DNA from: a virus
Strand: one strand, 5' to 3'
DNA length: 43,323 bases
Virus record (IMG/VR): IMGVR_UViG_3300005530_000043
Coordinates: 1 to 43,323 of that record
Position 1 is the first letter of the stretch, and each line of letters begins with the position of its first letter. The position numbers were made by a program, and so were the translations under genes. Under the pieces are notes generated by a model that worked only from the letters and a program-made list of their open reading frames with translations, had not been told where the DNA came from and did no database searches. Of the stretch, positions 1 to 43,009 are shown piece by piece.

Positions 1-1940
1 CCCCGCTTTTCACTTTTTTTTTTACTCGAGGCAGACTTCTTCACGGCGGCCGATTCCTTCGCCGCCTTCGCGTTCGCCGGGAATTCCGACGGATCCGGCA
101 CCTTCACCTTGCCGAGATCGATCTTGAGGAGCTTCGCCGCGGCCGCGAAGCGACTTGCGCCGTCGTTCGACCACGATGAGACGACCAGGTCGCTCGCGAG
201 CAGCAGCTGCATGATGAGCTTCGACTGCAGCCCTGGGCCAAGACCCTCGGCGTGTTTCGCGATCGCCTTTCCGAAGTCGTAGCTGCCATGCACGCTCTTC
301 TCCGGCGGCTCGATGTCGAGTGCCTTCACCGCGGCGCGGAGCGTGTCGTTCGTCACCTCGCGCAGCAGCCACTGAATGATCGGAAGCAGCCATGCGCCGC
401 CGATCGAAATCGGGAGCTTGTCTGAGATCGCTGCGAACTGTGCGCGGCGTAGTTCGGCCTTCCGTTTGGCAGCCGCCTGTCGCTTCCGCTCTTCGAGCTG
501 GTATTGCGTCGGCGGCTGCTTCGCGGGCTTTGCACTCGCACTCTTCGCCTTTACCCCCGCGTTCTCCTTCGCGTACTCCGCCGCGAGCTTCTCGAGCGCG
601 TCGACATTGAGCGCGTAGTCGACCTTCCCGACGCGCACGACCTCGCCCGTGTAGCGCGCGCGCAGTTCCGGCGGAATCTCGCGGAGCTCTTCGTCGAGGA
701 TGATGGTCTCGAGGATGAACTTGAGATCCTTCACCGGCACCGGCTTGCCGTCCTCGACGGCGTCGCGCCACTCGTACTCCTTCGAACCCTCTTCGATCGC
801 GCGCTCGAGGATCTTTGATGGGACGTTCGCGAACTGGCGAACAACCGGCGCGGCCGCGGCCGAGAACACGCCACTGATGAACAACGGCTGGAACGCCGCC
901 GGCGCATCGAGAATCGCGAGCCGATCGGCGACCGTGCTCCGCGGCTTCTTGAGATAGTCCGCGAGCTGCGAGGCGGTCCATCCCTTCGACTCGATGATGC
1001 GCTTCCACGTGCGCGCCTCCTCGAGCGGCTTGAGCCGCTTGCCTTGGTTGAGCGCCGACTGCCGGAGCAGCAGGTCGCCGGCATCCATCGGCCGTTCGTT
1101 CACGATTGCGCGAATGGTCTCCCGACCCGCCTTGAGCGAGCCGCGATAGCGACGTTCGCCGTCGACGATGATGTATGGCGGATGAAACCCGTGGTTCAAC
1201 CCAATCGTGATCGGCTCGCCCGCCTGAGGATGCGGCCGCACTTCGATCGGCGGGAGGATCGTGTCCGGATGAATGTCGTCGCCGATCTCGGCGTCTGCGC
1301 CCTCGTCGCGCGGTTGGTCCGGATCCGGCGCGACGTCGGCGATGGGCAGCTCGACGACGATCGCGAGCACGTTCGGCTCGCCGGCCAGGTTTCCCGCCTT
1401 CCCGATCGGCGCCTCGCTTTCGGTCTCCTCGACCGGCGCCGCACTATCGCCCGCATCGACCGGGACACTCCGCGCGAGGCGATACGCCTCCTCGAGCGTG
1501 TGATCACTCAACATCGAGACGATCTCGCGGACTTCCGCGGCGTCGATCAGCGCGGCGATCTCCGCGCGCAACGGCGAGCCTTCTACCGGCTGCGACTCGA
1601 CCAGACGGCCGATCGTCGAGATGATCCAATCGTTCGCCTGCGCGGAGAGCGGCCGGCTCCGCATCTTCGCCGGCAGCTTGCGCAGCGCGAACGCGGAGAA
1701 TTGTTCGCCGACGGTCGCTTCGGCTTCCGCCTGGTCGCCCTCATCGTCGGCGTCGCCGGCGTCCAGCGCCGCGTCGAGTCGACTCTCGAGATCGGCGGGC
1801 GCCTCGTCGTCGTCGTCATCCCAGTCAAAGTCATCCTCGTCGTCGAGATCCTCATCGGTCGCGTCATCGCTCGCGTCGTCGATCGCCACCGGTTGATCCG
1901 CGTCGTCCGCGAACGTGTACTCGTCGTTGTCGTCAGCCAT
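1..1940 (-). CDS. ParB-like nuclease-domain/HTH protein, partial (runs off left edge)
   Basis: The gene starts at ATG 1940 and stays open through base 1, giving at least 646 residues. Residues 1-75 are very acidic. A ParB N-terminal-like domain lies at about 195-285, with the box GERRYRG at 260-266. A helix-turn-helix follows at about 314-345 (WTASQLADYLKKPRSTVADRL is its core). The visible C-terminus is Lys/Ser rich. ParB-domain proteins bind DNA in partition or regulate and process phage DNA. No ParA ATPase is visible, so plasmid-style partition is unproven. The start overlaps the preceding zinc-ribbon gene by 8 bp, placing it last in the leftward recombination operon. An A10 run near the edge (14-23 on the plus strand is T) is a possible indel site, so the true C-terminus is uncertain. 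Confidence 0.85.
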   Translation of the reverse strand, partial: MADDNDEYTFADDADQPVAIDDASDDATDEDLDDEDDFDWDDDDDEAPADLESRLDAALDAGDADDEGDQAEAEATVGEQFSAFALRKLPAKMRSRPLSAQANDWIISTIGRLVESQPVEGSPLRAEIAALIDAAEVREIVSMLSDHTLEEAYRLARSVPVDAGDSAAPVEETESEAPIGKAGNLAGEPNVLAIVVELPIADVAPDPDQPRDEGADAEIGDDIHPDTILPPIEVRPHPQAGEPITIGLNHGFHPPYIIVDGERRYRGSLKAGRETIRAIVNERPMDAGDLLLRQSALNQGKRLKPLEEARTWKRIIESKGWTASQLADYLKKPRSTVADRLAILDAPAAFQPLFISGVFSAAAAPVVRQFANVPSKILERAIEEGSKEYEWRDAVEDGKPVPVKDLKFILETIILDEELREIPPELRARYTGEVVRVGKVDYALNVDALEKLAAEYAKENAGVKAKSASAKPAKQPPTQYQLEERKRQAAAKRKAELRRAQFAAISDKLPISIGGAWLLPIIQWLLREVTNDTLRAAVKALDIEPPEKSVHGSYDFGKAIAKHAEGLGPGLQSKLIMQLLLASDLVVSSWSNDGASRFAAAAKLLKIDLGKVKVPDPSEFPANAKAAKESAAVKKSASSKKKSEKR

Positions 1941-2220
1941 TGCTCGATCCTCTCAGGTCGTTAGCACACCAGTAACAGATCGTCGGGCGACTGAACGCGA
2001 AGTTCCCGCACGACGCACACGTGAACACCTCGGCGCGCGGCTGGCCGCGCATGGATTCGATCAGGACCCGCTCGCGCGGCGTGATCACGGGGCGCAATCG
2101 GCGCACGCAGACTACGGCATCCGAATGCAGTTCCCCCTGGTACTCTTCATTCCGCCGGCGCCAGCTCAGGAACGTCTTGGCCTGCTCCGGCGTCGGCGAT
2201 TCGAACTGGAACCGGCCCAT
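1933..2220 (-). CDS. Small zinc-ribbon protein
   Basis: This encodes 95 residues. The C-terminal third carries two Cys pairs, CASCGNFAFSRPTICYWC, the layout of a small zinc ribbon (CxxC-x11-CxxC). The N-terminal half is charged and has no recognised domain. The gene lies 3 bp after the Bet gene and overlaps the ParB-like start by 8 bp, so it is translationally coupled in the recombination operon. A nucleic-acid-binding or protein-adaptor role is inferred from the ribbon and context only. I cannot name a family. Confidence 0.8.
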   Translation of the reverse strand: MGRFQFESPTPEQAKTFLSWRRRNEEYQGELHSDAVVCVRRLRPVITPRERVLIESMRGQPRAEVFTCASCGNFAFSRPTICYWCANDLRGSSNG

Positions 2221-2223
2221 CGA

Positions 2224-3507
2224 TTAGAACGGCTGCTTGAGGCGCGCTGCGAGCTCGTCGACGAGCGCCTTCATCCTTTCGGGCGTGTCAGCCTTGTCGA
2301 AGCGCTTCTTGTAGAAGTCGCGATCGTCCGATTCGAGCTTGGGATCCTTGATCAATCGCGCGGCCTCGCGCGCCAGCTCCGCGATCTCCGACATGTTCGC
2401 CTTCGTCGCCGGCACGGGAGTGGTGGAGGCCGCGGACGTTTTGGTGTCCAGCGCATCCTCAACCTTTCCCGGGCGGAGAGCAGAATCGTTCGTCGGCGCG
2501 GCCTTCGACTCGCCGCCCATGTCCATCGTCGTCTGATCCTTCGCCGCCGCGCCCTCGCGCATGGCGATGATCAGAGCGCAGGCGTTGCGCAGCCGATAGT
2601 TGATCGGCGAGCTCTCTCCATCGCCCTGTTCGTCTTCCTGAATTTTCTTCTGGATCCACTTTCGAATCGCGGGAATCATCTTCGCGTCGAGCTGACCGAG
2701 CGGCGTACCCCCCTTGCCATTCCACGCGGACTTAGCGCCCGGGAGCGGCATCTCGAGCGCGGTCTCGATCGTCATCGTCTCTTCGACGACGTCGTCCTGA
2801 CCTTCTACCGAGTACTCGGCGTCTTCCTCGCCGGCCGGTTCGCTCGCGGTGTCGCGATCGGACTGCGTCCCCGCGGCCGCGCGCCGCACCGCTGGCTTCG
2901 GATCGTTGTCCGCCTGACCCATTTCTTCCGCCGTGTACAGTCCGGCGAGCTCCTGCGGGAACGCCTTTCGGAGCGCTAAGGATTCCGCGCACTTGGCGAT
3001 CATGACGTCGCCCATCGTACCCCACATTCGATTCGGCGCGCCGTCTTTGGTCTTCTGCACGTACGCGCCGAAGCGCGCGACGGCGTACAACGGCTCGGCG
3101 AAGTCGCTGCGTAATACCCCCACGCGCGCGGCCACCGGCGCGGTGTCGGCGAGCCACACGTCCTTCCAGACGCCGTCGGATCCGCACCAGAAGGGTCCGA
3201 CCTGGCCCTGATACTTGCCGGTGCGTTCGGCGATTAAGCGCTGGCCGTCGATCGAGATCTGCGTTTGCATGACCTCGCGACGCTGCTGGCCATCCCAGCG
3301 CTTGATCGCGTAGATCTGGCGGCTGAAGGGATCGAGCCCAGTGCGTTTGCACTGCTGCATGAACATCGAGAGCTCGTCGTCACTCGCGCCCTTCGCGATG
3401 GTGCGCTTGATCAGCTCGACTTGGTCGCGCGAAAACTGGACACTTGCCGCGGTAACGACCGCGGTGGACTCTTCGCCCTGCGGGCGCGTGGCGACAGCGT
3501 TCGACAT
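2224..3507 (-). CDS. bet: Bet/RecT-family single-strand annealing recombinase
   Basis: This encodes 427 residues starting at ATG 3507, in a TAATG junction with the upstream gene. The N-terminal ~210 residues match the phage Bet (lambda Red-beta) family. Key stretches are [21 protein letters not shown], the [22 protein letters not shown] region, the [11 protein letters not shown] segment and [18 protein letters not shown]. Such proteins anneal complementary single strands during phage recombination and replication. The protein is longer than lambda Red-beta (261 aa). An acidic, Lys-rich C-terminal extension follows, as is common in Bet homologues that contact SSB or host factors. The neighbouring Gp157-like gene is a frequent partner. 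No exonuclease (Exo/YqaJ) gene was recognised next to it. Confidence 0.93.
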
Positions 3508-4055
3508 TACTTGATCCTCAGCGAAATGCCGCGCGTGACCGTGAGCCCATCGGGCAACGGCTGGCCGGCTTTGTGGTGCTCGATCGCCGCGCGGCGATCG
3601 AGGGCAAACGTGGCCGGCGCGAACTTCACGAACGGCGCGCCTTCTTCGAACAGCGTGGACAGCGTCTCGGGCGCGAGCTCGCCGGCGAGCGACGGCGGAT
3701 TCGTCGCGACACTCACGGTGATCAGGAGACCGCTGAGCTTCGTCCGCTCGTGCCGCTGCATCTGCATGAGCAGGCCAGCCTTGCTGCGCTCGACAGCGTG
3801 CTCGATCGCCTTCCGCCGCGCAGCGATACGCTTCTCTTCCTCGCGCAGCTTGACGACGTCGGTCTCACGATCGAGGATCCACAGCCCCCAACGCTCGAGC
3901 TTCGTGTCGATCATGCCCTCGATCTTCTCGAAGGCCTTTTCCAGGTCGACGGTGAGCTCGCCCTCATTTTCGAAGAGCAGCTCGTCGAGCGCGTCGCGGA
4001 CATCGTTGAGCTCGCGCATCGTCGGCAGCATCGATCCCACAGCGGCGGCTGTCAT
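3507..4055 (-). CDS. Siphovirus Gp157-like protein
   Basis: The start is ATG 4055, because its A/T overlap the upstream stop in an ATGA junction. The product is 182 residues. The N-terminal two thirds form a long helical segment ([20 protein letters not shown], then [20 protein letters not shown]). A Lys/Arg-rich coiled region and a C-terminal part containing [11 protein letters not shown] follow. This is the typical Gp157 arrangement, a family found beside phage recombinases and linked in older literature to phage resistance in Streptococcus phages. Its molecular role is unknown. The 3' end abuts Bet (TAATG), so the two are probably co-translated. Confidence 0.8.
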
Positions 4056-5410: not shown

Positions 5411-5440
5411 TTGACAGTTCTGTGACCGCCGAATGATAAG
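5411..5440 (+). promoter_or_regulatory. Rightward repressor promoter (PRM-like) candidate
   Basis: TTGACA at 5411-5416 is a perfect -35 box, followed after 18 bp by GATAAG (5435-5440), a weak -10. Transcription would begin near 5447, inside the palindrome, which is why the repressor start was placed downstream at 5493 rather than at the longest ATG at 5433. A leaderless transcript from TAGATA (5483-5488) is an alternative. Confidence 0.45.
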
Positions 5441-5460
5441 CAAAATGCCTAGGCAGTCAA
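5433..5460 (-). promoter_or_regulatory. Leftward early promoter (PL-like)
   Basis: On the minus strand TTGACT (5460-5455) is followed after 16 bp by TATCAT (5438-5433). Each box differs from the sigma-70 consensus at one position. It reads into the HTH gene at 5387 and the Bet/ParB operon. The spacer contains the palindrome at 5446-5455, so repressor binding there would block polymerase directly. Confidence 0.7.
5446..5455. promoter_or_regulatory. Palindromic operator candidate TGCCTAGGCA
   Basis: This is a perfect 10-bp dyad between the -35 and -10 of the leftward promoter and at the expected start point of the rightward one. An 8-bp core copy, GCCTAGGC, recurs inside the repressor gene at 5707-5714. 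This is a natural site for the adjacent XRE repressor. It is inferred, not shown. Confidence 0.6.
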
Positions 5461-5492
5461 TACCCGAAACGCGACTTTCTCTAGATATTTCG

Positions 5493-6029
5493 ATGAGTTC
5501 GCCCGACGAACGGCGCGGGAAGCGGCTAAAGGCCGCTCGCGAGGCTAAGGGCCTGACACAGGCGGCCGCCGCTCAGCGGTTGGGCATCGACACGCAGACG
5601 CTCAGTCGATGGGAGCGAGCTGGCCGGGTGAAACCGCGAGATCTCGTCGCCGCTGCGCAGCTCTATGGCGTCTCGATCGCCGACCTGGATCCGGCACAGG
5701 CAAAAAGCCTAGGCGATAATCGACCGGCTGCCGTTCGCGAAAACGACCCCGTCTCCGCCGATGAGGTCAGTTACATCGTTGACCAGGTCCGCCAAAAGGC
5801 GACGCGATACAACATTCGTCGCGCTCAAGGCGCGCCTCCGGGCGAGCTCGATCGCCTCTATGCTGAATTGGAGCTGTCGGTGCGCAACGGACTCCAGGCC
5901 GGCGCGAATGACGAGTACTCCCTCGCCATGTTGACCAAGGCGATGATCGGACTTCTGACGTCAGAGAGCGATCCGCCGCGCGAGGAAAAGCCGCGCGGGT
6001 CTGCGAAACAGTCCGGCAATACGCGTTGA
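5493..6029 (+). CDS. XRE-family repressor without peptidase domain
   Basis: This encodes 178 residues from ATG 5493. Longer starts at 5433 and 5445 overlap the promoter/operator. Residues ~8-65 form a classic XRE/lambda-repressor HTH (RLKAAREAKGLTQAAAAQRL, then IDTQTLSRWERAGRVKP). The C-terminal ~100 residues are helical and polar, with no S24/LexA-type Ser-Lys protease signature, so RecA-stimulated self-cleavage is unlikely. It is divergent from the leftward operon and is probably the lysogeny repressor. The TPR gene 81 bp downstream may supply the sensing function. No strong Shine-Dalgarno precedes the chosen start. Confidence 0.8.
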   Translation: MSSPDERRGKRLKAAREAKGLTQAAAAQRLGIDTQTLSRWERAGRVKPRDLVAAAQLYGVSIADLDPAQAKSLGDNRPAAVRENDPVSADEVSYIVDQVRQKATRYNIRRAQGAPPGELDRLYAELELSVRNGLQAGANDEYSLAMLTKAMIGLLTSESDPPREEKPRGSAKQSGNTR

Positions 6030-8093: not shown

Positions 8094-8395
8094 CGCAACT
8101 TTATTGGCGCGGGCTTCCGGTGCCATCACGGCGCGTCCGGATCCGGATCAGCCGTAACGTGCCGGCGAGCTGGTGGTGCGCGCCACTCGCGGGCCAGGAG
8201 CGAGACGCGCTCGAGCTCCAGACCGCTGAGGGCCCACTGCTCATCGATGACGAGGACGGCGTCGGCACCGCAGTGATGTCCAACGCCTATAAGTCGCACG
8301 GCGGCTACAGTCGGCTGCCGGCGGATTCCGAAGTCCTCGCGGAGCTACCACCGATAGGTGATTCCGATCGTGACGCCCGGCCCGGAATGGAGTGA
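8090..8395 (+). CDS. Hypothetical small protein of the plus-strand island
   Basis: This encodes 101 residues from GTG 8090, in a GTGA overlap with the previous stop. AAGGAG sits immediately before the start, closer than usual. The frame has strong G/C third-position bias and an ordinary composition (YWRGLPVPSRRVRIRISRNV; PASWWCAPLAGQERDALELQ; LLIDDEDGVGTAVMSNAY). It therefore looks translated, although the start is uncertain. The last 51 bp overlap the 3' end of the convergent spanin-like gene. No function is recognised. Confidence 0.55.
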   Translation: MTQLYWRGLPVPSRRVRIRISRNVPASWWCAPLAGQERDALELQTAEGPLLIDDEDGVGTAVMSNAYKSHGGYSRLPADSEVLAELPPIGDSDRDARPGME

Positions 8396-8983: not shown

Positions 8984-9525
8984 ACAGCCTCCAGGAGCTC
9001 GAGCACGCGATGCCGAACCGCGAGTTTCGACAGGATCGGCCGATCGGGATGATAGCCCGTCGGATCGATCTTGCGCCCGAGCTTCCCGTTGTCGAAGCAG
9101 GCCTCGTCTTCGTGCCCCACAATACGCCGCGTGACGTCCGCGGCCGGCCACTTATTCAGTGCGAAGAGCGCGGCGCAATCGTGCGCAATGGCCTCGAGCT
9201 GCTTGGTCGTTGCCGGCGTCTTCGTGTCCGTCGCGGCCGAGAGCCCGTAGTACACGCGGTTGGCATTCTTCGTCAAACAGACGCCGGCGTGCCAGGCGGC
9301 CGATTCCATCGACGGCGTGATCTGCACCACGGATCCGTCATCGAGATAGAGCCGGTTGTACGAGACGTGGCAGGCCGGATCGTGGAACCAGGCTTCGGCC
9401 GAGCGATCGTTCGACGAGTCGTCAAAGTGCAGCATGATCCCACGACGCGCGCCGACCGGCCGCGCTTCATAGCAGTTGCGCGAGCCGACGAAGCGCACGG
9501 GGTCGAGCAGTTGGAGCGCGCTCAC
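8980..9525 (-). CDS. Endolysin, N-acetylmuramoyl-L-alanine amidase (Amidase_2)
   Basis: This encodes 181 residues. The fold hallmarks are GIMLHFDDSSND with zinc ligand His33, HVSYNRLYLDDGSVVQITP, the AAWHAG motif, RIVGHEDEA with His138, and LGRKIDPTGYHPD, where Lys152 and Asp154 match the Lys and third ligand of the AmpD/T7-lysozyme family. There is an insertion between GHED and GRKIDP. It cleaves the amide bond between MurNAc and the stem peptide. There is no signal peptide, so export relies on the holin. ATGA overlaps join it to the holin-like and spanin-like genes. Confidence 0.92.
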   Translation of the reverse strand: MSALQLLDPVRFVGSRNCYEARPVGARRGIMLHFDDSSNDRSAEAWFHDPACHVSYNRLYLDDGSVVQITPSMESAAWHAGVCLTKNANRVYYGLSAATDTKTPATTKQLEAIAHDCAALFALNKWPAADVTRRIVGHEDEACFDNGKLGRKIDPTGYHPDRPILSKLAVRHRVLELLEAV

Positions 9526-10252: not shown

Positions 10253-13048
10253 CTATTTCTTCGGGCCGATCACACGTCCGGCTTGTTCGCCAGCCGGAAG
10301 GCCGAGCAGCTGCTGCGCCTTCGCCCTGGTGAGTTGTCCTTTCTTCTGCAACGCCTCGAGCTCGTCGAGAGCCTTCATCAGTGTCGCGCGATCCGGACCG
10401 CCCTGCGTGTCGACACCGGCCATCAATCGATTCGCGACGGCATCGGCGTTGTTGGCGTTCACGCCGCTCATGATGTTCTTGATCCGCGCCTTCATCCCGA
10501 ACTTGAGCGCGCGCGATGGACTGACGACCATGCGCGCGACGTCCGACGGCGATGTGCCGTCTTCGATCGCGCTCCGCGCGCCGGCCTTGTCCATCGTGTT
10601 CGAGCCGCCGAGGATTCGCGCGTTCGCGTCGGACATGCTCCGCTCTTCGCCGGCGCGCTTGAGCAGCTCAGCCGACGAGGGCGCGTCCTTCGCGATCGCG
10701 GCGAGCTGCTGCCGTGCGGCGGCGGATCCGGACAGCTTTCCAGCGACCGGCGCACCGTCGCGCGTGTTTGCAATGACCTGATTGAGCGCGTCCTGGAGCC
10801 CGTAGCGATAGAGTCCCTTCTCGTGATCCGTCTCGAGCGCGCCGATCTCCCGCTCAATCACCCGCGGATCCTTATTGATCGCACCACGCCCGGATTCAAG
10901 CGCCTCGCGCATCCGCTCGGCCGCGGCGTACTGCTGACGCGCCTTGCCGTACTCCGGTACGGCGGCATCGACCTTCCCCAGAAATTCCCCGAGCCGCTGC
11001 TGCAGCTTCACCGCGGCCGCCTTGTCGATCGAGCGCTTGTCGAGGTTCTTCTGGATCTCGGCGTCGACGCCGCGCTTCACCATGTCGAGGGCTTCGACGT
11101 CGGGAATGGTGGTCCGCACTTCGCGCGTCGCCGCCGCTGGCGCATTCTCACCAAAGTTGAAATCCGTCGGGTCCGATTCGCGGCGTTTGAGCTCGGCCTG
11201 GAGGCGCGCGATCGCATTCTCGCGGGCCTTTCGAACGATCTGCGACTTGTTGAACTCGCCGACCGTCTTGTTATCCTGGGCGAGTTGGTCGGCGTCGCGC
11301 ATGCCGTCGGCGTCTGGAAGATCCTCGGCCTGTCGCTTGATGCGGTTTCCGAACTCATCCGTCGTTCGCTTGGAGCGACCGATCCGTTCGCTGCTGGGGA
11401 GCGCTTCATAGTCGGCGCGATAGCCCGCTTCCTGGACCGCGGAATGCGCCGCCTCTTCGCTCGCATTCATCTCGGTCAGGCGCTGCCACTCCTTCTCGAG
11501 CTCCTCGTCGCTCACATGCGTGAGATCACGACGCAACTGACCAAAGCGATCACGCACCGTCAGATCGCCCGGCGCCGCGTGCTCGAGCGGGACGCCCTGC
11601 TTGCGCATCGTCTTCACGACGTCGGCCCACTGATCGTCCGAAAACCCGGGAGGCGTCGGCGGGACCTTGGGCGGTTCAACGACGTACGAGATGCGCTCCG
11701 GGAGCTCGCGACCGTCGAGTTTTGCGAGATTCTTCGCGAAGGCGTATGCCTTGTCGAAGTACGGCAGCTTGAGCATCTGGTCGATCGTCTCGTCGGGCAC
11801 CGCGCCCTTCGCGTATGCGTTGCGGTAATTCTCGTCAGCCGCCGCCATCTGAGCACTACGCATCTGATCCGCGAGCTCGTACGGGTTCACCGGTTGAACG
11901 CCAGACGCGTTCGTCATGTCGGCGCTGATCCGCGTTGCCGCATTCTCGGCCCGTCGACGCAGCACCTGCGGCGTCTTCGTTGCAGCAGCGGATTCGGTGA
12001 AGGTGCGCGCGCCAGCGGCGAGCTGCTGCGCGCCTTCCCCACCAAGATCCGCCAGCGTCACAGGCTTGTCGCCGGACGCCGTCGTCGCGGCATCGCGAAG
12101 ATCCGCGATCGACTTACCACCCTTCGTGATCGTGTTGAGCACGATCTGATCGCCGCGATCCTGCGCCGACCGCACGCCGACGCGCCGCGCGGTCTTCTGC
12201 GGCACGGTGAGCTCGATCCCCTGCTTGTCGTCCAGAAGCGGTGCGACCGCATCGGCGGGTGCGCGGACGCCGGCGGCATCGATCGCGCGCGACGCGACCG
12301 GGCCGACGATGCGTTTGCCTGCCGCGACGCCACCGGAAACAACCGGTGCGACGACGGCGCCCGCCATCGCACCGCGCGCCGCGCCGGTGAGACGATCGCC
12401 TTCTGACGTTCCCGCGCCGGCGGCCGCGCCGCCGATCGCGCCCACGTCGACCGCGTGCCCGAACGCCTGCGAGATGCGACTCAGTTTCGATGCGGCCTGG
12501 GGCACTTCCGCGGCGGCCGGCAGCAGTCGCGCGGCGCCGAGCCCGGTCGCGGCACCGCCCGCGATCTGCGCGGCTGTCGAGACGATCGGATGCGCCGACT
12601 CGTAGGCGTGGAGAATGCCACGCTCATTCGCGAGCGCATCCGTGTACGATGATTTCGTGAACAGCGATCGCGCGCCGGCGTTAATCTCGTCGCCAAAGCC
12701 GAACGTCGCCCCCTGCTCGATCTCGCGCGGCAGTCCGCTCGAGATAATCGGCGGCTCGGCGGCCATCGCCGCGCGACGACTCGCCTGATCGGGGGCCGCA
12801 GACGTCGCGTCACTCGCCGCACCGGCGTAGCTCGGGGCACGGATCGCACGCACGGGCGCCGCCGACATGGGCGCCAACCGCTCGTGCGTCCCGAGGTAGT
12901 CGTCGATCTCCTCGGGCTTCGCGCCCTTCGACTGCATGAGCTGAATGTTGTTCCGGATCCGCGTCTGCTCGGCGGGATTGAGCGACGCGAAGGACCGCGG
13001 CGTGCCGGGCGCCGGCGCCTGCGGAATCGGCTGGATCGGCGCCGTCAC
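10253..13048 (-). CDS. Large internal virion (DNA ejection) protein
   Basis: This encodes 931 residues from GTG 13048 (GTGA overlap). The N-terminus is Pro/Ala rich and contains a short motif (RSFASLNPAEQTRIRNNIQLM). A Gly/Ala-rich hydrophobic region at ~155-265 (AAQIAGGAATGLGAARLLPA; GAIGGAAAGAGT; GAMAGAVVAPVVSGGVAAGK) could insert in membranes. The rest is long helical and charged. This architecture, size and placement after two other internal-protein candidates fit podoviral ejection proteins that leave the capsid with the DNA. No transglycosylase motif was seen. Homology to any specific protein cannot be claimed by eye. Confidence 0.7.
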   Translation of the reverse strand: MTAPIQPIPQAPAPGTPRSFASLNPAEQTRIRNNIQLMQSKGAKPEEIDDYLGTHERLAPMSAAPVRAIRAPSYAGAASDATSAAPDQASRRAAMAAEPPIISSGLPREIEQGATFGFGDEINAGARSLFTKSSYTDALANERGILHAYESAHPIVSTAAQIAGGAATGLGAARLLPAAAEVPQAASKLSRISQAFGHAVDVGAIGGAAAGAGTSEGDRLTGAARGAMAGAVVAPVVSGGVAAGKRIVGPVASRAIDAAGVRAPADAVAPLLDDKQGIELTVPQKTARRVGVRSAQDRGDQIVLNTITKGGKSIADLRDAATTASGDKPVTLADLGGEGAQQLAAGARTFTESAAATKTPQVLRRRAENAATRISADMTNASGVQPVNPYELADQMRSAQMAAADENYRNAYAKGAVPDETIDQMLKLPYFDKAYAFAKNLAKLDGRELPERISYVVEPPKVPPTPPGFSDDQWADVVKTMRKQGVPLEHAAPGDLTVRDRFGQLRRDLTHVSDEELEKEWQRLTEMNASEEAAHSAVQEAGYRADYEALPSSERIGRSKRTTDEFGNRIKRQAEDLPDADGMRDADQLAQDNKTVGEFNKSQIVRKARENAIARLQAELKRRESDPTDFNFGENAPAAATREVRTTIPDVEALDMVKRGVDAEIQKNLDKRSIDKAAAVKLQQRLGEFLGKVDAAVPEYGKARQQYAAAERMREALESGRGAINKDPRVIEREIGALETDHEKGLYRYGLQDALNQVIANTRDGAPVAGKLSGSAAARQQLAAIAKDAPSSAELLKRAGEERSMSDANARILGGSNTMDKAGARSAIEDGTSPSDVARMVVSPSRALKFGMKARIKNIMSGVNANNADAVANRLMAGVDTQGGPDRATLMKALDELEALQKKGQLTRAKAQQLLGLPAGEQAGRVIGPKK

Positions 13049-24636: not shown

Positions 24637-24702
24637 CGCTTGGTTGCTTGAGTTGTGAACCGGATCCGGAGATCCGGGACTACGTGCTACGTCGCTACAC
24701 GA

Positions 24703-28444: not shown

Positions 28445-28708
28445 AGACGCCTCTCAGCTCAGATTGTCGGCCGAATAGCTACCGACGGATCCGGCGAAAG
28501 GCAAATCTCTTCAGGGTTTGTTCAGCGACGAGTTGTGAGCGTCCGTCGGCACTTGGCAGGCGTAGCTGGCCGTGTCACAGCTCTTTGGACTCGCCTGTTG
28601 CTGCACTCCGATGCATTGTCCCTGGCAACGGAGACCGGCGTGGAATCGGCCTTGGGATCGGGGCATTGTCCGACGCGCGTGCACGTCATTCCGTGCGGCG
28701 ACGAACGC
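28445..28708. other. Region without a convincing gene, with possible broken Cys-rich ORF
   Basis: Between the leader hairpin and the stop of the 72-residue gene there is no clear intact CDS. On the minus strand, ATG 28689 begins a 55-codon Cys-rich frame ending at 28522 (MTCTRVGQCPDPKADSTPVS at its start). Its later half looks non-coding. The neighbouring frame reads SPKSCDTASYACQVPTDAHN and ends at 28511. One extra G in the GGG at about 28621-28623 would join them into one 59-residue protein. This could be a decayed small gene or a sequence error. One CGGATCCG lies at 28486. Confidence 0.35.
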
Positions 28709-32543: not shown

Positions 32544-33279
32544 GCCAACCCTCGCGGATCCGCTTCCGCATCTCGTCGCCGTCCGGCGTCATCGGCAATG
32601 CCGTGTCGACGACGCGCCCCATCTCGTGGATGACACGATTGAGCTCCGGCCGCGAGATCGCGTTCGCGCTGCGCGCCTTCTCGACGCGCTCGACCATCTT
32701 CCCGATCGCGTCCAACACGCGGTACGCATCGCTGAGATCGAGCACTGTCTTCGGCTTCGCCGCGGCCTCGGCGCCGCGGAGCACCGTGAGGAACTTCCGC
32801 GCCTGGGCGAGCTCGCCCTCCTGCTGCGTCGTGAGCTCCGCGCCTTCGCGCGCGTGATTCTCCCACTCGTCGACGACGTGCTCGAATGACTGCAGCAGAT
32901 CCTCGGGCAGCGGACGGCGGGTGAGCTGAAACGACGCGTGCCACGCGAGCAACGCTTCGGTGTGTTCGTCGTACCGCTCGACGAACTCCTGGAACAGCGC
33001 GCGCAGCGCCGCGATCTCGGGCAACACGTTCAGCGGATCCGGATCGGCCTCGTGCTGCGCGATGAGGTCGCGAATGCGATCGCGCTTGATCGTCGAGTAG
33101 CGGCCGTGCTTGATCGGCGTCTTGCCGCCGTGCAGCCAGCACTTCCCCTGTCCGGGGTGATCCGTCCGCGCGCCGGCGACCTGGGCGCACGCCGATCCCC
33201 GGCGTGTCTTCGCGCCGCATCGCGGAGTACTCACGGGAATGATGCTCGCGCCCGTCGGCGCCGCGACGTCAGCGTCCAT
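32527..33279 (-). CDS. terS: Terminase small subunit-like protein
   Basis: This encodes 250 residues from ATG 33279. The N-terminus has the zinc-binding CGAKTRRGSACAQVAG segment, then HPGQGKCWLHGGKTPIKHGR, the HGGxxxxKHGRYS-type signature common in phage small terminases and related DNA-binding proteins. The remainder is long helices (PEIAALRALFQEFVERYDEH) suited to a ring oligomer. Direct overlap with terL supports the role of recognising phage DNA and recruiting the large subunit. Confidence 0.8.
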   Translation of the reverse strand: MDADVAAPTGASIIPVSTPRCGAKTRRGSACAQVAGARTDHPGQGKCWLHGGKTPIKHGRYSTIKRDRIRDLIAQHEADPDPLNVLPEIAALRALFQEFVERYDEHTEALLAWHASFQLTRRPLPEDLLQSFEHVVDEWENHAREGAELTTQQEGELAQARKFLTVLRGAEAAAKPKTVLDLSDAYRVLDAIGKMVERVEKARSANAISRPELNRVIHEMGRVVDTALPMTPDGDEMRKRIREGWLALAI

Positions 33280-33595: not shown

Positions 33596-33939
33596 CGCGG
33601 CCGCGCGCCCTTCTTCTTCGCCCTCTTCGGCGGCGCATCGTCCGCATCCGCGTCGTTCAGCGGATGCACTCGCACGCGGACGCGTTGGCCGAGCTTGAAC
33701 TGCTGCGCCGCGTCAGCCGGCATCGTGAAGCGCGACTCGTCGGGATACGTACTGAGGATCCCGTCCCCGCCGCGCTTCGGCTTCCCGTGCTTCACGGTCA
33801 TGTGCATGGTGTCGTCGTTGTCGTATCCCTCGCCCAGCGTCGAGATGTGCCCGTGCGCTTCGATGCCGGATCCGGCTTTGCGGAACGGCGGCTGGCGCTT
33901 CGGCGGCTTCTTCGACTTCGTGGCCTTGTCATCCTTCAC
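33592..33939 (-). CDS. Basic hypothetical protein with small beta core
   Basis: This encodes 115 residues from GTG 33939 (GTGA overlap). Lys-rich tails flank a short strand-rich core (DTMHMTVKHGKPKRGGDGIL; ADAAQQFKLGQRVRVRVHPL). The core QFKLGQRVRVRVHPL resembles a small SH3/OB-like strand pair. The ends look disordered and nucleic-acid-binding in character. No function is recognised. Confidence 0.65.
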   Translation of the reverse strand: MKDDKATKSKKPPKRQPPFRKAGSGIEAHGHISTLGEGYDNDDTMHMTVKHGKPKRGGDGILSTYPDESRFTMPADAAQQFKLGQRVRVRVHPLNDADADDAPPKRAKKKGARPR

Positions 33940-35110: not shown

Positions 35111-35355
35111 GTACGCTCCCACTTGCGCTTGTTCGCGGCCGGATCCGGCCGCGGGTGATGGGGATGCGCCTCCGGACAGCCCACGCGCGTACACTGCTCG
35201 ACGGTCTGCCCGTACTCGCCCAGGTAGAACCGCAGCGGCGCGCCGCACGTGAGGCACGGCGCGACTTCCGTCCGCGGTGCCGCGGCGGCGACGCCCGTCC
35301 ATCCGAGCGCCGCCTGCACATTGAGGCTCGCGCCGCGCGCGCTGCGGCCGCTCAC
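35107..35355 (-). CDS. Zinc-ribbon-like small protein
   Basis: This encodes 82 residues from GTG 35355 (GTGA with the STAS stop). The longer frame shadows that gene. The segment APCLTCGAPLRFYLGEYGQT, then VEQCTRVGCPEAHPHH, gives CxxC-x17-C-x4-C with a His-rich end. A DNA- or RNA-related accessory role is likely but unproven. Confidence 0.65.
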   Translation of the reverse strand: MSGRSARGASLNVQAALGWTGVAAAAPRTEVAPCLTCGAPLRFYLGEYGQTVEQCTRVGCPEAHPHHPRPDPAANKRKWERT

Positions 35356-35744
35356 CGGTGCGCCCGATCGGCGGCGGTGATGGGCGGTTCGATCGTGAGC
35401 ACCGAGTCGAGGTTCACATGCGCGATGAAGAAACGCATCTCCTCGTTCAAGCCTTCGATCAGCAGCCACCCGCCGGCCTCGCGGCATTTCTTGTTCAGGC
35501 TCACCAGCACGCCCAGGCCGGACGTATCGACGTAGCCACACTGCGCGGCATCGAGCACGATCCGCGCGTGGCCGGCCGCGATCATGTCGACGACGTCCAT
35601 CTTGAGTTTCTGGCGCGTCTGCACCGACAGCTCGCTCGGAATGACAACGCGCTTGGCCGCCGGATCCGTGGATGACGGAACCGGCGGGTTCGTGGCAGGC
35701 GTACCGGTCATCCCGATCGCATGGTCGATCGCGGTGGTGTGCAT
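35352..35744 (-). CDS. STAS-domain protein (anti-anti-sigma factor-like)
   Basis: This encodes 130 residues from ATG 35744 with GAGG upstream. After a ~30-residue flexible start the STAS fold runs to the end: RVVIPSELSVQTRQKLKMDV, HARIVLDAAQCGYVDTSGLG, VLVSLNKKCREAGGWLLIEG, FFIAHVNLDSVLTIE. The DTSGLGVL motif with Ser75 matches the phosphorylation site of SpoIIAA/RsbV (DSSGLGVL). Such proteins bind anti-sigma kinases and free a sigma factor. A phage copy could redirect host sigma use or stress signalling. No kinase or sigma factor gene is in the window. Confidence 0.82.
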   Translation of the reverse strand: MHTTAIDHAIGMTGTPATNPPVPSSTDPAAKRVVIPSELSVQTRQKLKMDVVDMIAAGHARIVLDAAQCGYVDTSGLGVLVSLNKKCREAGGWLLIEGLNEEMRFFIAHVNLDSVLTIEPPITAADRAHR

Positions 35745-35832: not shown

Positions 35833-36888
35833 TCAGGTTCCGGTCGTCAGTTCGGCCGGCACACGACCGACCTCGCACATCGCCTCGATGAGCTGCACGA
35901 GCTGCTCGCGCGATTCATCGCGGAGGGCGCGCAGCTGCTTGCCGAGATCCCACTCCTCGAACCGCGCGTCGTAGATCGCACGAGCGGCCACGCGGGCCGC
36001 GCGCCGTTTGTCGTAGTAACTGCCGCTCGTTTCGCTCGAGGCTTTGAGCGCCGCCCTGAACGCCGCGGTGTGCACGTTGTCAGCGTCAGCGGCAGCGACA
36101 GCGTCAGCGTCAGCGACAGCGGCAGCGACAGCGTCAGCGTCAGCGTCAGCGGCAGCGGCAGCGTCAGCGACAGCGTCAGCGTCAGCGTCAGCGGCAGCGG
36201 CAGCGTCAGCGGCAGCGTCAGCGTCAGCGACAGCGACAGCGACAGCGTCAGCGGCAGCGGCAGCGACAGCGGCAGCGACAGCGGCAGCGTCAGCGTCAGC
36301 GACAGCGACAGCGACAGCGGCAGCGGCAGCGGCAGCGGCAGGCACCTTCGCCTGGAGCTCAGCGACCTTCGCGTAGTACGCGTTCCAGCGCTCGTTCCGG
36401 ATCCGCCAGCATTTGTCCGCCGTCTCGCGACTCAGTCGACGGGCAATGGTCTCGCCGTCGAGATCCACAATTTCCGGCAGCTGCTCGAGCTGCTCCGCTT
36501 CCGCGGTCAGTCCGGCGAGGCGCAGGTAGGCCGGGAAGCGATTTCGCACGACCCAGTTGAGCGCCATGCGCCGGCGCGTCTCATCGTCCGCGTCCGTCGT
36601 CCGCGTGCCGATCAGCTTCGGGATCAGCGGCTTGAGATAGCGATCACGCTCGGCGTTCGACGGCAGCCGGTCGTTGAACGAAATGCACAGGCTCGTGATG
36701 AACTCCGAGGTGCACTTCGGGTGATCGCTGAACTTCTCGCCGGCGATGTAGGCCGTCGCCTCCATCACGCACATGCCGTCTTCGGCCGCGCGGTGCGAGC
36801 CGTACGCGATCGTGAGATCGTCCAGCGAGGTGAGGCCGAGCGCGCGCAAGCGTTCGGGGAGATCGAGCGGTTTCGTCCGCGTGGTCAT
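35833..36888 (-). CDS. Phage protein with hexanucleotide-encoded A-D/V/A repeat
   Basis: This encodes 351 residues from ATG 36888, preceded by GGAGG. The N-terminal ~170 residues look globular and conserved (DLPERLRALGLTSLDDLTIA; ECVMEATAYIAGEKFSDHPK-like core with GSHRAAEDGMCVMEATAYIA; LRLAGLTAEAEQLEQLPEIV). Residues ~185-270 are Ala alternating with Asp, Val or Ala, encoded by 43 tandem hexamers. The end is helical (DLGKQLRALRDESREQLVQL). The N-terminal part resembles a protein recurring in many actinobacterial and soil phages, function unknown. The repeat may be a flexible spacer of variable length. Confidence 0.78.
   Translation of the reverse strand: MTTRTKPLDLPERLRALGLTSLDDLTIAYGSHRAAEDGMCVMEATAYIAGEKFSDHPKCTSEFITSLCISFNDRLPSNAERDRYLKPLIPKLIGTRTTDADDETRRRMALNWVVRNRFPAYLRLAGLTAEAEQLEQLPEIVDLDGETIARRLSRETADKCWRIRNERWNAYYAKVAELQAKVPAAAAAAAAVAVAVADADAAAVAAAVAAAAADAVAVAVADADAAADAAAAADADADAVADAAAAADADADAVAAAVADADAVAAADADNVHTAAFRAALKASSETSGSYYDKRRAARVAARAIYDARFEEWDLGKQLRALRDESREQLVQLIEAMCEVGRVPAELTTGT
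36080..36337. repeat. 43 tandem hexanucleotides NCAGCG (N = T, A or G)
   Basis: Forty-three uninterrupted 6-bp units share CAGCG and differ only at the first base, which is T, A or G but never C on the plus strand. On the coding (minus) strand this is GCT then GNC, with N in the middle of the second codon, giving Asp (GAC), Val (GTC) or Ala (GCC) but never Gly. Copy-number changes would keep the reading frame. Confidence 0.95.
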
Positions 36889-36964: not shown

Positions 36965-38620
36965 CTAGTCGCCGGGCGGCTCGAGCGAGTCCCAGTAATT
37001 CGGATCCGCCGCGTCATCCTCGGCCGGCGGCGTCCTCTTCAGGTCTTTGGTGCCACTTTCACTTCCGGCACTACCAACGGGCGGGTGCCTGGGTGGAAAA
37101 CCCCTAAAGGGGTTTTCCAAACCTCCAGTGGCACCCGGGGTTGGCACTGGTTTGGCACCTGTGGCACTTGGCAGTTGAGCCACCTTCCCGCTCAACGTGA
37201 CCGTATACCGACCGCCGCGAGATCCTTCCGCGACGTAGCCGGCATCCACGAGCCAGGTGCGCGTCCGGAAGAACGTGCGTCGGGTCAGGTTGGAGGCTTC
37301 AAACCATTCCGTCGTCGTCGCGCCGCGATCCGTGAACGATTCGCGGAGGACGCGAAGCGCTTGGAATCGTTTGGGATTCATGACCCCGGCCTGCTCGCGT
37401 GCGACCTCGGGACTATCGGCCGCTTGCACAACGCAGGAGCCATGACCGGCGACGAGCCGGAAGGGGATGGGGGAAAACGCTTCCGCGTCCTTCTGCTTGG
37501 CACACACGAGCTGGCGACCGTCGTCGCCATCCTCGCAGAACAGCAGCGTATCGACGGCGCCGCGGAGCGCGCTGGAGCCGCGCTCCTGGTCGGAGTTCTT
37601 GCTCGTGTGGTGGACCAGCAGGACCGCCGCGCCGGTCTCGTCGCGGATCCGGTCCGCAGCCGCGATCACCGTCGACATGTCCCGCGTGTCGTTCTCGTCG
37701 CCGCCGACCATGGCGCGCGCGAGCGTGTCGATGACGATCAACCGGAGCGGCTGCCCGACGTGCGGCGCCTTCGCCGCGGTGACAATGCGCGCGACGTCCA
37801 GCGGCTTGAGGAGGTCGATCGGATCGGTGATCACGCCGACGCCCACCGCTTCGCCCAAGACGCGATGGGCGCTCTTCCACGCGACGATCCGCTGCGAGAG
37901 ACCCGCGTCCCCTTCGCCGGCGACGTAGAGGGCGCCGCCGTGCACGATCTCGCGGCCGCACCACGACACACCCGTGCCGATCGAGAACGCGAGATCGAGC
38001 GACAGAAACGACTTGCCGGCACCTGGGGCGCCGTAGATCGCCGCGAGGCCGCCGAGCGGCAGAATGCCGTCGGCGAGCCAGGCCATCGGCGGCAGCTGCT
38101 CGAGCTCGACGTCCGATCGCACGCGCAGCGGGCCGTTGCGTTTCGACGTCCGCGACGTCGCCGCCAACGCATCCAGCGCGGGCCGGAGTCGCTCGGCGAT
38201 CTGCGCCGCGTCGGCCGATCCATCCCGGAGCAGCTTCGCGCTATCATGCAGCGCTTTGTTGGCGAGGCGACGCTTGGCGCGCTCGACGACGATCGACGCG
38301 TGCGATTCGACATTCGCCGCGGTCGGCACCGCGTCGACGAGAAACCCGATGTACTCCTTCCCGCCACTCGCCTCGAGCAGCCCGGCGTCACCGAGCTCCG
38401 TCGACAGCGTGAGCGGGTCGACGACGTCGCCGCGGTCGGCCAGGCCGAGCATCGCCTTGTAGAGATGGCGGTGCCGTTCCACGAAGAAGTCCGCGACGGC
38501 GACGATCGATCGCAGGCGCGAAAGCGCGCCCGGATCAATGAGCACCGCGGAGAGGACGGCTTGCTCGGCCGCCTCGGAGTACTTCCACGCGACATCGCGT
38601 GGGTCAAGCGAGTCAGCCAC
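36965..38620 (-). CDS. DnaB N-terminal domain fused to RepA-like AAA ATPase (replication protein)
   Basis: This encodes 551 residues from GTG 38620 with GAGGG upstream. Residues ~15-120 match the DnaB helicase N-terminal domain (SEAAEQAVLSAVLIDPGALS; FFVERHRHLYKAMLGLADRG; GKEYIGFLVDAVPTAANVES). Residues ~185-400 are a RecA/RepA-like ATPase with Walker A GAPGAGKS, Walker B LRLIVIDTLARAMVGG and sensor AAVLLVHHTSKNSDQERGSS. A C-terminal winged-helix-like part (FQALRVLRESFTDRGATTTE) and a Pro/Gly linker end it. It likely serves as phage helicase or origin protein. The expected DnaB C-terminal domain is replaced by the shorter RepA type. A possible origin lies inside the gene. Confidence 0.85.
   Translation of the reverse strand: MADSLDPRDVAWKYSEAAEQAVLSAVLIDPGALSRLRSIVAVADFFVERHRHLYKAMLGLADRGDVVDPLTLSTELGDAGLLEASGGKEYIGFLVDAVPTAANVESHASIVVERAKRRLANKALHDSAKLLRDGSADAAQIAERLRPALDALAATSRTSKRNGPLRVRSDVELEQLPPMAWLADGILPLGGLAAIYGAPGAGKSFLSLDLAFSIGTGVSWCGREIVHGGALYVAGEGDAGLSQRIVAWKSAHRVLGEAVGVGVITDPIDLLKPLDVARIVTAAKAPHVGQPLRLIVIDTLARAMVGGDENDTRDMSTVIAAADRIRDETGAAVLLVHHTSKNSDQERGSSALRGAVDTLLFCEDGDDGRQLVCAKQKDAEAFSPIPFRLVAGHGSCVVQAADSPEVAREQAGVMNPKRFQALRVLRESFTDRGATTTEWFEASNLTRRTFFRTRTWLVDAGYVAEGSRGGRYTVTLSGKVAQLPSATGAKPVPTPGATGGLENPFRGFPPRHPPVGSAGSESGTKDLKRTPPAEDDAADPNYWDSLEPPGD
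37095..37167. other. Candidate replication origin: perfect dyad plus TGGCAC repeats
   Basis: GGAAAACCCC (37095-37104) and GGGGTTTTCC (37109-37118) form a perfect 10-bp stem around TAAA, with one more T-A pair outside. Beside it four direct TGGCAC copies start at 37129, 37142, 37153 and 37162, and an inverted copy lies at 37050-37055. This sits in the linker-coding part of the replication gene, as lambda ori sits in O. Confidence 0.45.
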
Positions 38621-39336: not shown

Positions 39337-39363
39337 GTGTGCCGGATCCGCCAAATAAAACGC

Positions 39364-40611
39364 CTACGCGCCCCGGGCCGTCCGTCCCCCGTTGAAGACG
39401 AGCCGGGGCCCGACCTCCCCGTAAATCCGGGCACGCGCCAGCTGCGCCGCGGTCTCGGGCGTGAAGTGCGTGTAGTGCTTCTCGGTCGTGGCGATGCGCT
39501 GGTGGCCGAGGGAGCGCTGCAGCTCCTCGAGGCGCCCGCCCAACTCCAGGAACAACCGCGCGTACGTGTGGCGCAGCGTGTGCCAGCCCATCCCCGGTTC
39601 GTTGACGCCGGCGATGTCATAGACGAGCTGCAGCTGCAGGTACGACGTCGAGACGTCGGGCACGCCCTTCGCCCATGACAGCACGCGGCCGCGCGCGCGA
39701 TCGCGGTGGTACGTCCACCACGACGGCAGCACGAGCGACGTCCGCGCCACTTTGCCTTTGAGCGGCAGGAGTCCGCTCCGATCGTGCGCCAGCTGATGGG
39801 TGAACCGCACGGTGCGATCGGCCGCGCGGAATTGCGTCCAGTCCAAGGCCATGAGCTCCTTCTGCCGACCACCGGTCCCGAGTGCGAGCTCGATGGCCAC
39901 GCGGATCGACGTGCACCGATTCTCGCGGCGATCGACGGGCGCGTGCTCGAGGCGATCGGCGGCTTCACGGACGGCCACCAGCTCGTCATCGGTGAACGCC
40001 CGCACATCCGTCTCGCCGGGATCCGGCAGCACGAGGCCGTGCGCGGGGTTGTCATCCCGAGCGCGGCCGAGCCACGCGAAAAATGCGCTCCACACCGACA
40101 CCATGCGCTCGACCGTCGCGACTTGGTACTCGGCGTCGAGCATCGTGTTGACGAGCTGCTGGAGATCAACGCGTTCGATCGCGTCGATGCGCTTTGTCGT
40201 GCCGAGCGCCGGCAGGAGATGGGTCCGGAGGCCGGTTCGGTCCGACCATACCGTGCGATCGCCGACCGTGCGCTCGCGATGGAGGATGTACTCCTCGACG
40301 CGTTCCGCAAACGACTTCCGTTCGCGCGGTGCGAGGCCGAGCTGCTTCCGTTTCGCGCCGTCGCGATAGTAGTCGACGTACGTCCACTTCCAACGCTCGG
40401 CGACTTCGAGATCATCCGTGCGATCGCCGGCGTCGGGCCAGCCGCGCGCCGACGGGTTGCGCAGCGTGCACCGTTCCCCGCCCCACGGACGGAGATCGGC
40501 ACCGGCCCAGCGGCCGCGGAAATAAATGCGGGGGCCGAGCTCATGAGGTTTGTGCGCGCGTTGCGCGCGTGGCGGCGGCGCCTTTACGGGCGGCTGCTTT
40601 CCAGGGGCCAC
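39364..40611 (-). CDS. int: Tyrosine recombinase/integrase
   Basis: This encodes 415 residues from GTG 40611, eight bases after GGAG. A TTG at 40686 gives 25 more residues but reads deep inside the HTH gene. An arm-binding-like N-terminus (GPRIYFRGRWAGADLRPWGG) and SAM-like core-binding domain (SFAERVEEYILHRERTVGDR) precede the catalytic domain. Active residues visible are Arg in LALGTGGRQKELMALDW, Lys in PLKGKVARTS, HTLRHTYARLFLELGG (HxxR), GHQRIATTEKHYTHF with the Tyr nucleophile. It inserts and excises the prophage at att sites. It overlaps the upstream HTH gene by 71 bp, suggesting coupled expression. Confidence 0.94.
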   Translation of the reverse strand: MAPGKQPPVKAPPPRAQRAHKPHELGPRIYFRGRWAGADLRPWGGERCTLRNPSARGWPDAGDRTDDLEVAERWKWTYVDYYRDGAKRKQLGLAPRERKSFAERVEEYILHRERTVGDRTVWSDRTGLRTHLLPALGTTKRIDAIERVDLQQLVNTMLDAEYQVATVERMVSVWSAFFAWLGRARDDNPAHGLVLPDPGETDVRAFTDDELVAVREAADRLEHAPVDRRENRCTSIRVAIELALGTGGRQKELMALDWTQFRAADRTVRFTHQLAHDRSGLLPLKGKVARTSLVLPSWWTYHRDRARGRVLSWAKGVPDVSTSYLQLQLVYDIAGVNEPGMGWHTLRHTYARLFLELGGRLEELQRSLGHQRIATTEKHYTHFTPETAAQLARARIYGEVGPRLVFNGGRTARGA

Positions 40612-41873: not shown

Positions 41874-42148
41874 CGTGAGACGCTCCGTCGACGCGATCGC
41901 GGGCCGCCGGTGATGCGGAGATCGCGCGTCACGGCGCCGGGCAGATGCGCCCAGGTCGCGCCATGGATCGCCATCGTGATCGCGGACGGCGACACGCCGA
42001 GCTTGAGCGCGGCGAGCTCGATCCATCCGGATGCGGGCGACTCACGCCGCGCGCGTTCGCGGAGCCGCCGCACCCGGGCCTCGGTGAGTCGCGCGGCGCC
42101 GTGCGCCTCGCCGACGCGCGCCTTGGGGGAATGCCGGTGCTTAGTCAT
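41870..42148 (-). CDS. Small HTH DNA-binding protein
   Basis: This encodes 92 residues from ATG 42148. The segment ARLTEARVRRLRERARRESP, then WIELAALKLGVSPSAITMAI, HGATWAHL resembles the helix-turn-helix appended to phage homing endonucleases and small regulators (A-x-LTE..V..IR .. ELA..FGVS..TI..I..G.TW). No nuclease domain is attached. It is basic at both ends and probably binds DNA. Eight base pairs overlap the winged-helix gene upstream. Confidence 0.7.
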   Translation of the reverse strand: MTKHRHSPKARVGEAHGAARLTEARVRRLRERARRESPASGWIELAALKLGVSPSAITMAIHGATWAHLPGAVTRDLRITGGPRSRRRSVSR

Positions 42149-42461
42149 GCTTGGTCTCGACGGGAAGCGTGCCGATCTCGTCGAACGAGACCAGCACCGT
42201 GATGGCGCGCGCGTTCCGTGGCTCGCGCTTGATGTAGCCTTTCAATTCCAGATTCATGATGTGCTCGGCGACGGTGCCGATCGATTTCCAGCGAAATGTC
42301 TTGCCCAGCTCTTCGAACGTCGGCGCGCAGCCCTGCGACGCGATGCGCGTGCAGATCACGCGCAGGAGCGCCGCTTCGATCTTCGTCAGCGGCTTCTGGC
42401 GCGCGCCGAGCACATGTCCACACGTCGGGCAGCGCTTCGGCTGAATCCGCGGCTCGGTCAA
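42141..42461 (-). CDS. LexA-type winged-helix regulator with zinc knuckle
   Basis: This encodes 106 residues from TTG 42461 (TTGA overlap with the metallopeptidase stop). A short N-terminal CPTCG precedes PLTKIEAALLRVICTRIASQ, GCAPTFEELGKTFRWKSIGT and VAEHIMNLELKGYIKREPRN, the LexA DNA-binding domain pattern. ARAITV is the matching wing. There is no peptidase domain, so it cannot self-cleave. It may repress or activate early promoters, or compete with host LexA. Confidence 0.75.
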   Translation of the reverse strand: MTEPRIQPKRCPTCGHVLGARQKPLTKIEAALLRVICTRIASQGCAPTFEELGKTFRWKSIGTVAEHIMNLELKGYIKREPRNARAITVLVSFDEIGTLPVETKHD

Positions 42462-43009
42462 TCCGGCGCGCCCTCGAACATGCCCAACTGGTGCGCCTGG
42501 ACGACGGATCCGGCAAAGACCGTGAGGTCGTCGCGCCAGAGCCCCCAGCGGCGCACGATCCCGCCAAACTCTTCGATGTCGTGGCTGATGAGCACCCACG
42601 CCGTCTCGCCGCCCGGCGTCTCGTCCTTCCCGAAATGCGAGAGCTCGTGATCCACCAAGGCCACCTTCTGGTGATCGCTGAGCAGCTTCCACTGCTGCCA
42701 ATTGATCTCCATCACCAGGTCGTAGCCGGCGAAGAAGTTCACGCGGCCGCCGGCCTTGCTCGCCTTTCCCCACACGATGCGATCGCGCGTCTTCATCTTC
42801 TCGCGATAGACGTACGCGATCGCCGCGGTGACGAGGTGCTTGTGGATCGCGCGGATCAGGACCTTCGCAATCGCCTCGACCTGCCCGGCGTTGTGATACG
42901 CCTCGGTCTCGTCCCAGCCACCGAGGCCGGGCGTGGCGATCGCCTTCTCGAGATCGAGTTCGTACCCGCGCAACGCGTCGGGGATATGCAACCGCGCTTG
43001 ATTCTTCAC
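42458..43009 (-). CDS. Putative phage metallopeptidase
   Basis: This encodes 183 residues from ATG 43009. It shows the phage metallopeptidase pattern: RVNFFAGYDLVMEINWQQWK, LLSDHQKVALVDHELSHFGK (HExxH with Glu and both His), then WVLISHDIEEFGGIVRRWGL, where His and Glu could complete the zinc site. The middle (AYVYREKMKTRDRIVWGKAS) is basic. The family is common in phages. Suggested roles include host-protein cleavage, but its substrate is unknown. It follows the SWIB gene by 10 bp and overlaps the LexA-like gene. Confidence 0.82.
   Translation of the reverse strand: MKNQARLHIPDALRGYELDLEKAIATPGLGGWDETEAYHNAGQVEAIAKVLIRAIHKHLVTAAIAYVYREKMKTRDRIVWGKASKAGGRVNFFAGYDLVMEINWQQWKLLSDHQKVALVDHELSHFGKDETPGGETAWVLISHDIEEFGGIVRRWGLWRDDLTVFAGSVVQAHQLGMFEGAPD

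Follow-up and report, generated by a model that had tools for sequence, protein, structure and literature searches.

A highly iterated palindromic octamer shared by a temperate phage and a minority of Microbacteriaceae genomes

HIP1 (GCGATCGC), a highly iterated palindrome (HIP) of cyanobacteria, was described in 1995, and the reason for the existence of HIPs has been an open question since then. Members of this class are palindromic oligomers with at least 75% G+C that occur in about 1000–2000 copies per Mb (Elhai 2015; PMC4390886), and one of them, GGGATCCC, is the dominant over-represented octamer in the genomes of Synechococcus JA-3-3Ab and JA-2-3B (PMC4390886). We have found that a phage genome, the complete IMG/VR virus record IMGVR_UViG_3300005530_000043 (43,323 bases, hereafter the window), carries 38 exact copies of the octamer CGGATCCG, a palindrome with G or C at six of its eight bases and the core GGATCC, and that the same word is enriched in a minority of the Microbacteriaceae. 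Like HIP1, it is a GATC-centred palindromic octamer present at about one copy per kb in both genes and intergenic regions; it differs from HIP1 in its sequence, in its occurrence in a phage and in Actinomycetota, and in that we found no methyltransferase tracking its density. With GGGATCCC it shares the GGATCC core, the 8-bp palindromic form and the rank of dominant over-represented octamer, the differences being the outer base pair (C..G here) and the actinobacterial rather than cyanobacterial setting. Chi sites and DNA uptake sequences are also short words iterated through genomes, but they are non-palindromic and oriented, unlike CGGATCCG, for which we saw evidence of neither role.

The CGGATCCG enrichment works like a HIP, as the initial annotation had proposed when it compared the repeated word with HIP1. 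The octamer is palindromic, with a G+C content at the 75% threshold, and its copy number (877 per Mb in the window and 977 per Mb in Microbacterium sorbitolivorans) is of the order expected for the class, if slightly under the quoted range; the genome-wide occurrence is seen in the Microbacteriaceae relatives, among or near which the phage's own host probably lies. New here are the sequence of the HIP, the phylum (Actinomycetota) and the occurrence in a phage. We know of no earlier case of a phage HIP, and a literature search in open-access papers returned nothing relevant on CGGATCCG, on over-represented palindromes of Microbacterium or on HIPs in phages. The best explanation, to which we give a probability of about 0.62, is that the window represents a temperate, podovirus-like actinobacterial phage, probably of or near the Microbacteriaceae, whose DNA bears the HIP of the lineage that it infects. 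HIP1 proper, a word that is low in genomes dominated by another HIP, was considered and rejected: GCGATCGC is mildly abundant in the window (30 copies against 14 expected; z 2.6 under the codon shuffle), the dominant octamer is CGGATCCG and the lineage evidence points to Actinomycetota.

The initial annotation had counted 37 copies against an expectation of 1–2; the excess stands, although the exact count is 38 and the expectation was too low for a sequence of this composition. Markov models of orders 1–4 (100 simulations each) produced means of 4.1–6.5 copies and at most 13, the observed number being a 7-fold excess over the order-3 expectation; order 5, which already holds most of the word, gave 18. 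Within the called genes, which contain 33 copies, a synonymous-codon shuffle left 6.2 copies, and a shuffle preserving both codons and junction dinucleotides 8.4 ± 2.5, and never more than 15 in 300 runs. A similar count in such a shuffle had been named at the outset as grounds for abandoning the claim; these grounds do not arise, since the shuffled counts fall far below the observed one. Chance, codon usage and dinucleotide bias are thus refuted as causes of the excess by the shuffles and the Markov nulls. With a z of 9.0, CGGATCCG ranks top among the 256 palindromic octamers (the runner-up has 4.9), and each of its 24 one-base neighbours is present in 0–5 copies. Other short words in the window include the very rare CTAG (11) and the very common GATC (568, or 13.1/kb) and TCGA (533).

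The cause of the enrichment acts on DNA rather than on protein, as had been suggested. Genic copies occur in all reading frames, being read as Arg-Ile (7), Asp-Pro (16) or Gly-Ser (10); in the window genes, GGATCC is used for 12 of the 60 Gly-Ser pairs (0.6 expected) and GATCCG for 34 of the 59 Asp-Pro pairs (14.5 expected). The density outside called genes (1.06/kb) is comparable to that within them (0.86/kb), gene boundaries being approximate because gene calling relied on a simple codon-usage procedure. The five copies outside called genes start at 8138, 23100, 24661, 28486 and 39343; the last four had already been reported as intergenic, and the first had been placed at 8148, the one wrong coordinate among the examples originally given. 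The spacing of the copies is compatible with random placement (coefficient of variation (CV) 0.78, P 0.075). The largest interval, a 4961-bp gap previously said to cover the lysogeny switch, does hold a repressor-like gene (5433–6029), but 32% of random placements also contain a gap of this length. Regular spacing and avoidance of the switch were both rejected as not significant.

The copies, given without strand, lie at 90–97 and 1320–1327 (both in the gene at 3–1940), 3177–3184 (in the RecT gene), 8138–8145 (outside called genes), 9330–9337, 10723–10730, 12954–12961, 13183–13190, 14445–14452, 15150–15157, 16316–16323, 17342–17349, 19230–19237, 19995–20002, 21563–21570, 21765–21772, 22372–22379, 23100–23107 and 24661–24668 (both intergenic), 25939–25946, 26273–26280, 27483–27490 and 27548–27555 (all four in the portal gene), 28486–28493 (intergenic), 29685–29692, 30405–30412 and 30411–30418 (overlapping by two bases), 31338–31345 (in the large terminase gene), 32555–32562, 33034–33041, 33867–33874, 35140–35147, 35661–35668, 36398–36405, 37001–37008 and 37644–37651 (both in the helicase gene), 39343–39350 (intergenic, adjoining the integrase gene) and 42505–42512.

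An over-representation in one bacterial lineage, anticipated in the initial annotation, was indeed found. In a scan of contigs for three close copies of CGGATCCG, Microbacterium and two metagenome-assembled genomes (MAGs) stood out among the matches listed. M. sorbitolivorans (G003) has 3028 copies in 3.1 Mb by whole-genome count (0.98/kb), followed by the actinobacterial MAGs SZAS-4 (G002; 0.84/kb) and SZAS-7 (G001; 0.78/kb), the Microbacterium sp. Pcu381 bin (G011; 0.68/kb), Microbacterium sp. ASV81 (G004; 0.63/kb) and M. indicum (G006; 0.46/kb); the remaining cellular genomes counted alongside them have about 0.12/kb at most. The genus of M. sorbitolivorans shows a clear split, with 7 of 119 genomes at 0.49–0.98/kb and no other above 0.11/kb. 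Microbacterium genomes other than that of M. sorbitolivorans reach 0.63–0.70/kb, and eleven more genomes of the Microbacteriaceae 0.18–0.53/kb, six of which have near-identical densities and sizes of 3.1–3.3 Mb and probably belong to one genus. Low-density relatives have about 0.05–0.1/kb, against 0.24–0.98/kb in the enriched minority of the family; in the regions sampled, their observed/expected ratios are 0–3 on small counts. Systematic sampling by phylum covered Actinomycetota and Pseudomonadota: of 396 Actinomycetota genomes drawn, only SZAS-7 and G338 exceed 0.2/kb, and none of 298 other Pseudomonadota genomes exceeds 0.13/kb. In the regions sampled, CGGATCCG is the top over-represented palindrome of nearly all enriched genomes, as it is in the window. 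Very high G+C is not needed for the enrichment, because in a member of the Microbacteriaceae with 57.5% G+C in the regions read (G923; L387 and L397) CGGATCCG is also the top palindrome (14 copies against 1.7 expected). A lower-G+C stretch of 20 kb in SZAS-7 (L235, G001:C299:15001-35000) contains two copies (0.10/kb) beside a type III-like modification gene, and is possibly recently acquired DNA that has yet to gain CGGATCCG.

To follow the octamer between genomes, we compared 280 kb of G003 by alignment with G471 (275 kb, at 85% identity) and with G338 (240 kb). Between G003 and G471, CGGATCCG sites are kept more often than frequent octamers matched for flank divergence (Mantel-Haenszel odds ratios (OR) 2.2 and 3.9; p 8e-9 and 2e-17); states one substitution away from the word are depleted (OR 0.37 and 0.22). 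An excess of multi-base replacements creating sites, apparent at first look, was not significant once flank divergence had been matched (p about 0.22). In codons that fall entirely within the octamer and retain their first two bases, the third base of GGA, TCC and GAT is kept in 0.73–0.96 of cases, versus 0.33–0.63 for the same codons outside it (p down to 2e-21); from G003 to G471 it is kept at 296 of 369 positions, 190 being expected from the same codons elsewhere, and in the reverse direction at 285 of 323 (158 expected). Because synonymous bases inside the octamer are conserved about twice as often as those of the same codons elsewhere, CGGATCCG is maintained at the DNA level, apart from protein constraint, in these two enriched genomes, and the regions of G003, G471 and G338 all display this biased conservation. 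Third-base conservation is compatible with selection as well as with a restoring repair process and does not separate them.

In the explanation that we favour, a cellular process reading CGGATCCG, with its core GGATCC, would hold the octamer at about one copy per kb in the host lineage, so that existing copies would be retained and one-base variants would not persist. Since the phage and some Microbacteriaceae chromosomes share the enrichment, this process may act in trans on any DNA resident in those cells, prophages included. It could be either a step of repair or conversion that works with a bias, or selection for a site read by a host DNA-binding protein, and our data leave the choice between the two undecided. 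The presence of the enrichment in the phage favours a process blind to the encoded content rather than a function confined to the chromosome, for instance segregation; segregation and uptake signals, which the initial annotation had also raised, received no support. Most likely, the enrichment identifies the phage as one that resides in Actinobacteria with a HIP.

Both forms of this process are tentative possibilities. If repair or conversion is passively biased, a host enzyme would restore near-matches to CGGATCCG, and the word would build up in all resident DNA without any benefit. The depletion of one-substitution variants between related genomes agrees with it, as do the similar coding and non-coding densities, the random spacing in the phage and the host-like density of the phage. 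Against it, one-base flank variants (NGGATCCG) are enriched rather than consumed in the enriched genomes, for which reason we also rejected genome-wide near-match depletion as a sign of conversion. Moreover, the model proposed for HIPs requires MutS and MutL (Elhai; PMC4390886), which almost all Actinobacteria are reported to lack (PMC5290159). Under binding-site selection, a recombination, nucleoid or repair protein of the host would read CGGATCCG, and chromosome and phage would both gain from about one site per kb. The high retention of sites and the strong conservation of synonymous positions within the octamer fit this, but no candidate protein was found and sites in host genomes are clustered rather than even (CV 1.24–1.30). 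In addition, the phage encodes RecT and Gam-like proteins of its own, so that it has no evident need of Chi-like sites.

An orphan methyltransferase for GATC, GGATCC or CGGATCCG could drive the enrichment. A cause of this kind has been proposed for the HIPs of cyanobacteria, in which each HIP genome contained a methyltransferase whose predicted target was part of the HIP (Elhai; PMC4390886). A conserved beta-class, RsrI/CcrM-like enzyme (PF01555) does exist in all enriched Microbacterium genomes examined; in M. sorbitolivorans it is solitary (G003:C2:183860-184774; L191), its orthologues are nearly genus-wide and its DPPF motif suggests that it is probably adenine-N6 specific. However, it is found in 115 of the 119 genus genomes whatever their CGGATCCG density, enzymes of PF02086 and PF00145 are scattered, so that several enriched genomes lack them and low-density ones have them, and no additional PF01555 enzyme was detected in ASV81, M. 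indicum, the Pcu381 bin or G338. The window itself has no match to PF01555, PF02086 or PF00145. As none of the three families tracks the density, methyltransferase presence was rejected as a discriminator, and methylation, one of the causes first suggested, appears unlikely. A BamHI-type restriction-modification target was also rejected, the word being enriched and not avoided. Far less probable is a phage-specific signal, for instance for ParB binding or packaging: the phage does encode a ParB-like protein (3–1940), but the same octamer occurs throughout chromosomes of the lineage, and 38 dispersed, unclustered copies do not resemble a parS cluster. Least credible of all is a by-product of composition or codon usage, or chance; although GATC is generally common in the window, the Markov (orders 1–4) and codon/dinucleotide nulls all fail, and the enrichment is specific to the octamer and not shared by its neighbours.

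We infer that the host of the phage is one of the bacteria enriched in CGGATCCG. The window represents a tailed phage, and a temperate one because it has a tyrosine integrase gene (39364–40611, minus strand; Pfam and PHROG matches). Its major capsid protein (23123–24571, minus strand) and portal protein (25880–28111, minus strand), both with PHROG matches, were used to place the host lineage: their tblastn matches of known host are exclusively phages of Arthrobacter, Microbacterium and Cellulosimicrobium (Micrococcales), at about 23–26% identity. For the large terminase subunit (30822–32519, minus strand; PHROG match), Arthrobacter phages are among the best matches, but the matches extend to many other hosts. 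The terminase-portal-capsid order is the same in Microbacterium phage Shocker. In the 9–34 kb read of each, Shocker, the related phages Adat, DS1 and ctEqG8, and the nearest IMG/VR portal relative (L001) contain no copy of CGGATCCG. Among 128 viral loci longer than 5 kb, preselected for close CGGATCCG copies, five reach 0.4 isolated copies/kb, all of them shorter than 10 kb. A search of the window for a tRNA gene as a host link found none, and k-mer signatures, alike across several actinobacterial loci, were of no help.

Several observations weigh against the assignment to a HIP-bearing host of or near the Microbacteriaceae. A search of 367 genomes of the genus Microbacterium for a prophage relative of the portal gave none, and the integrase matches do not favour the Microbacterium lineage over any other, so the host is inferred and not shown. 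RecT is widespread, and its closest matches among named phages are cyanophages. Both CG flanks are present at 38 of the 61 GGATCC sites of the phage (0.62), versus 0.22–0.44 in most enriched genomes (Fisher p 0.009 for the comparison with M. sorbitolivorans), and one-base flank variants are 2.3–4.9-fold enriched in the enriched bacteria but hardly in the phage. Because the phage motif is stricter than in the sampled enriched genomes, the true host may belong to an unsampled genus with a correspondingly strict octamer; alternatively, phage and chromosome may differ in their response.

A broader proposition, which we find plausible but slightly less probable than its opposite, is that HIPs are not peculiar to cyanobacteria, the CGGATCCG HIP having arisen in several lineages of Microbacteriaceae and been imprinted on temperate phages at chromosomal density. 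The Microbacteriaceae are expected to lack MutS/MutL mismatch repair. If the proposition holds, a MutS/MutL-based model would be excluded as the general cause of HIPs, and the cause would act in trans on any resident DNA. Since enriched and non-enriched species share one genus, Microbacterium, with isolates that include M. sorbitolivorans and M. indicum, this cause can be sought among close relatives. The phage provides a separate test, a small genome in the same cell showing whether the cause needs a chromosome, and CGGATCCG might serve as a signature by which phages of unassigned host could be matched to the bacteria that they infect.

The gene set of the window comprises terminase, portal, capsid, RecT, Gam-like, ParB-like, DnaB-type helicase, integrase, repressor-like and endolysin genes. 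The Gam-like end-protection protein (3507–4031) adjoins the RecT annealing protein (2224–3507), forming a Red-like pair; this RecT is 54.8% identical to that of Microcystis phage Mae-JY09 and up to 73% identical to those of uncultured viruses. At 42458–43009 the window encodes a protein with a PhageMetallopep domain (PF18894) that PHROGs labels as a transposase, two annotations that conflict.

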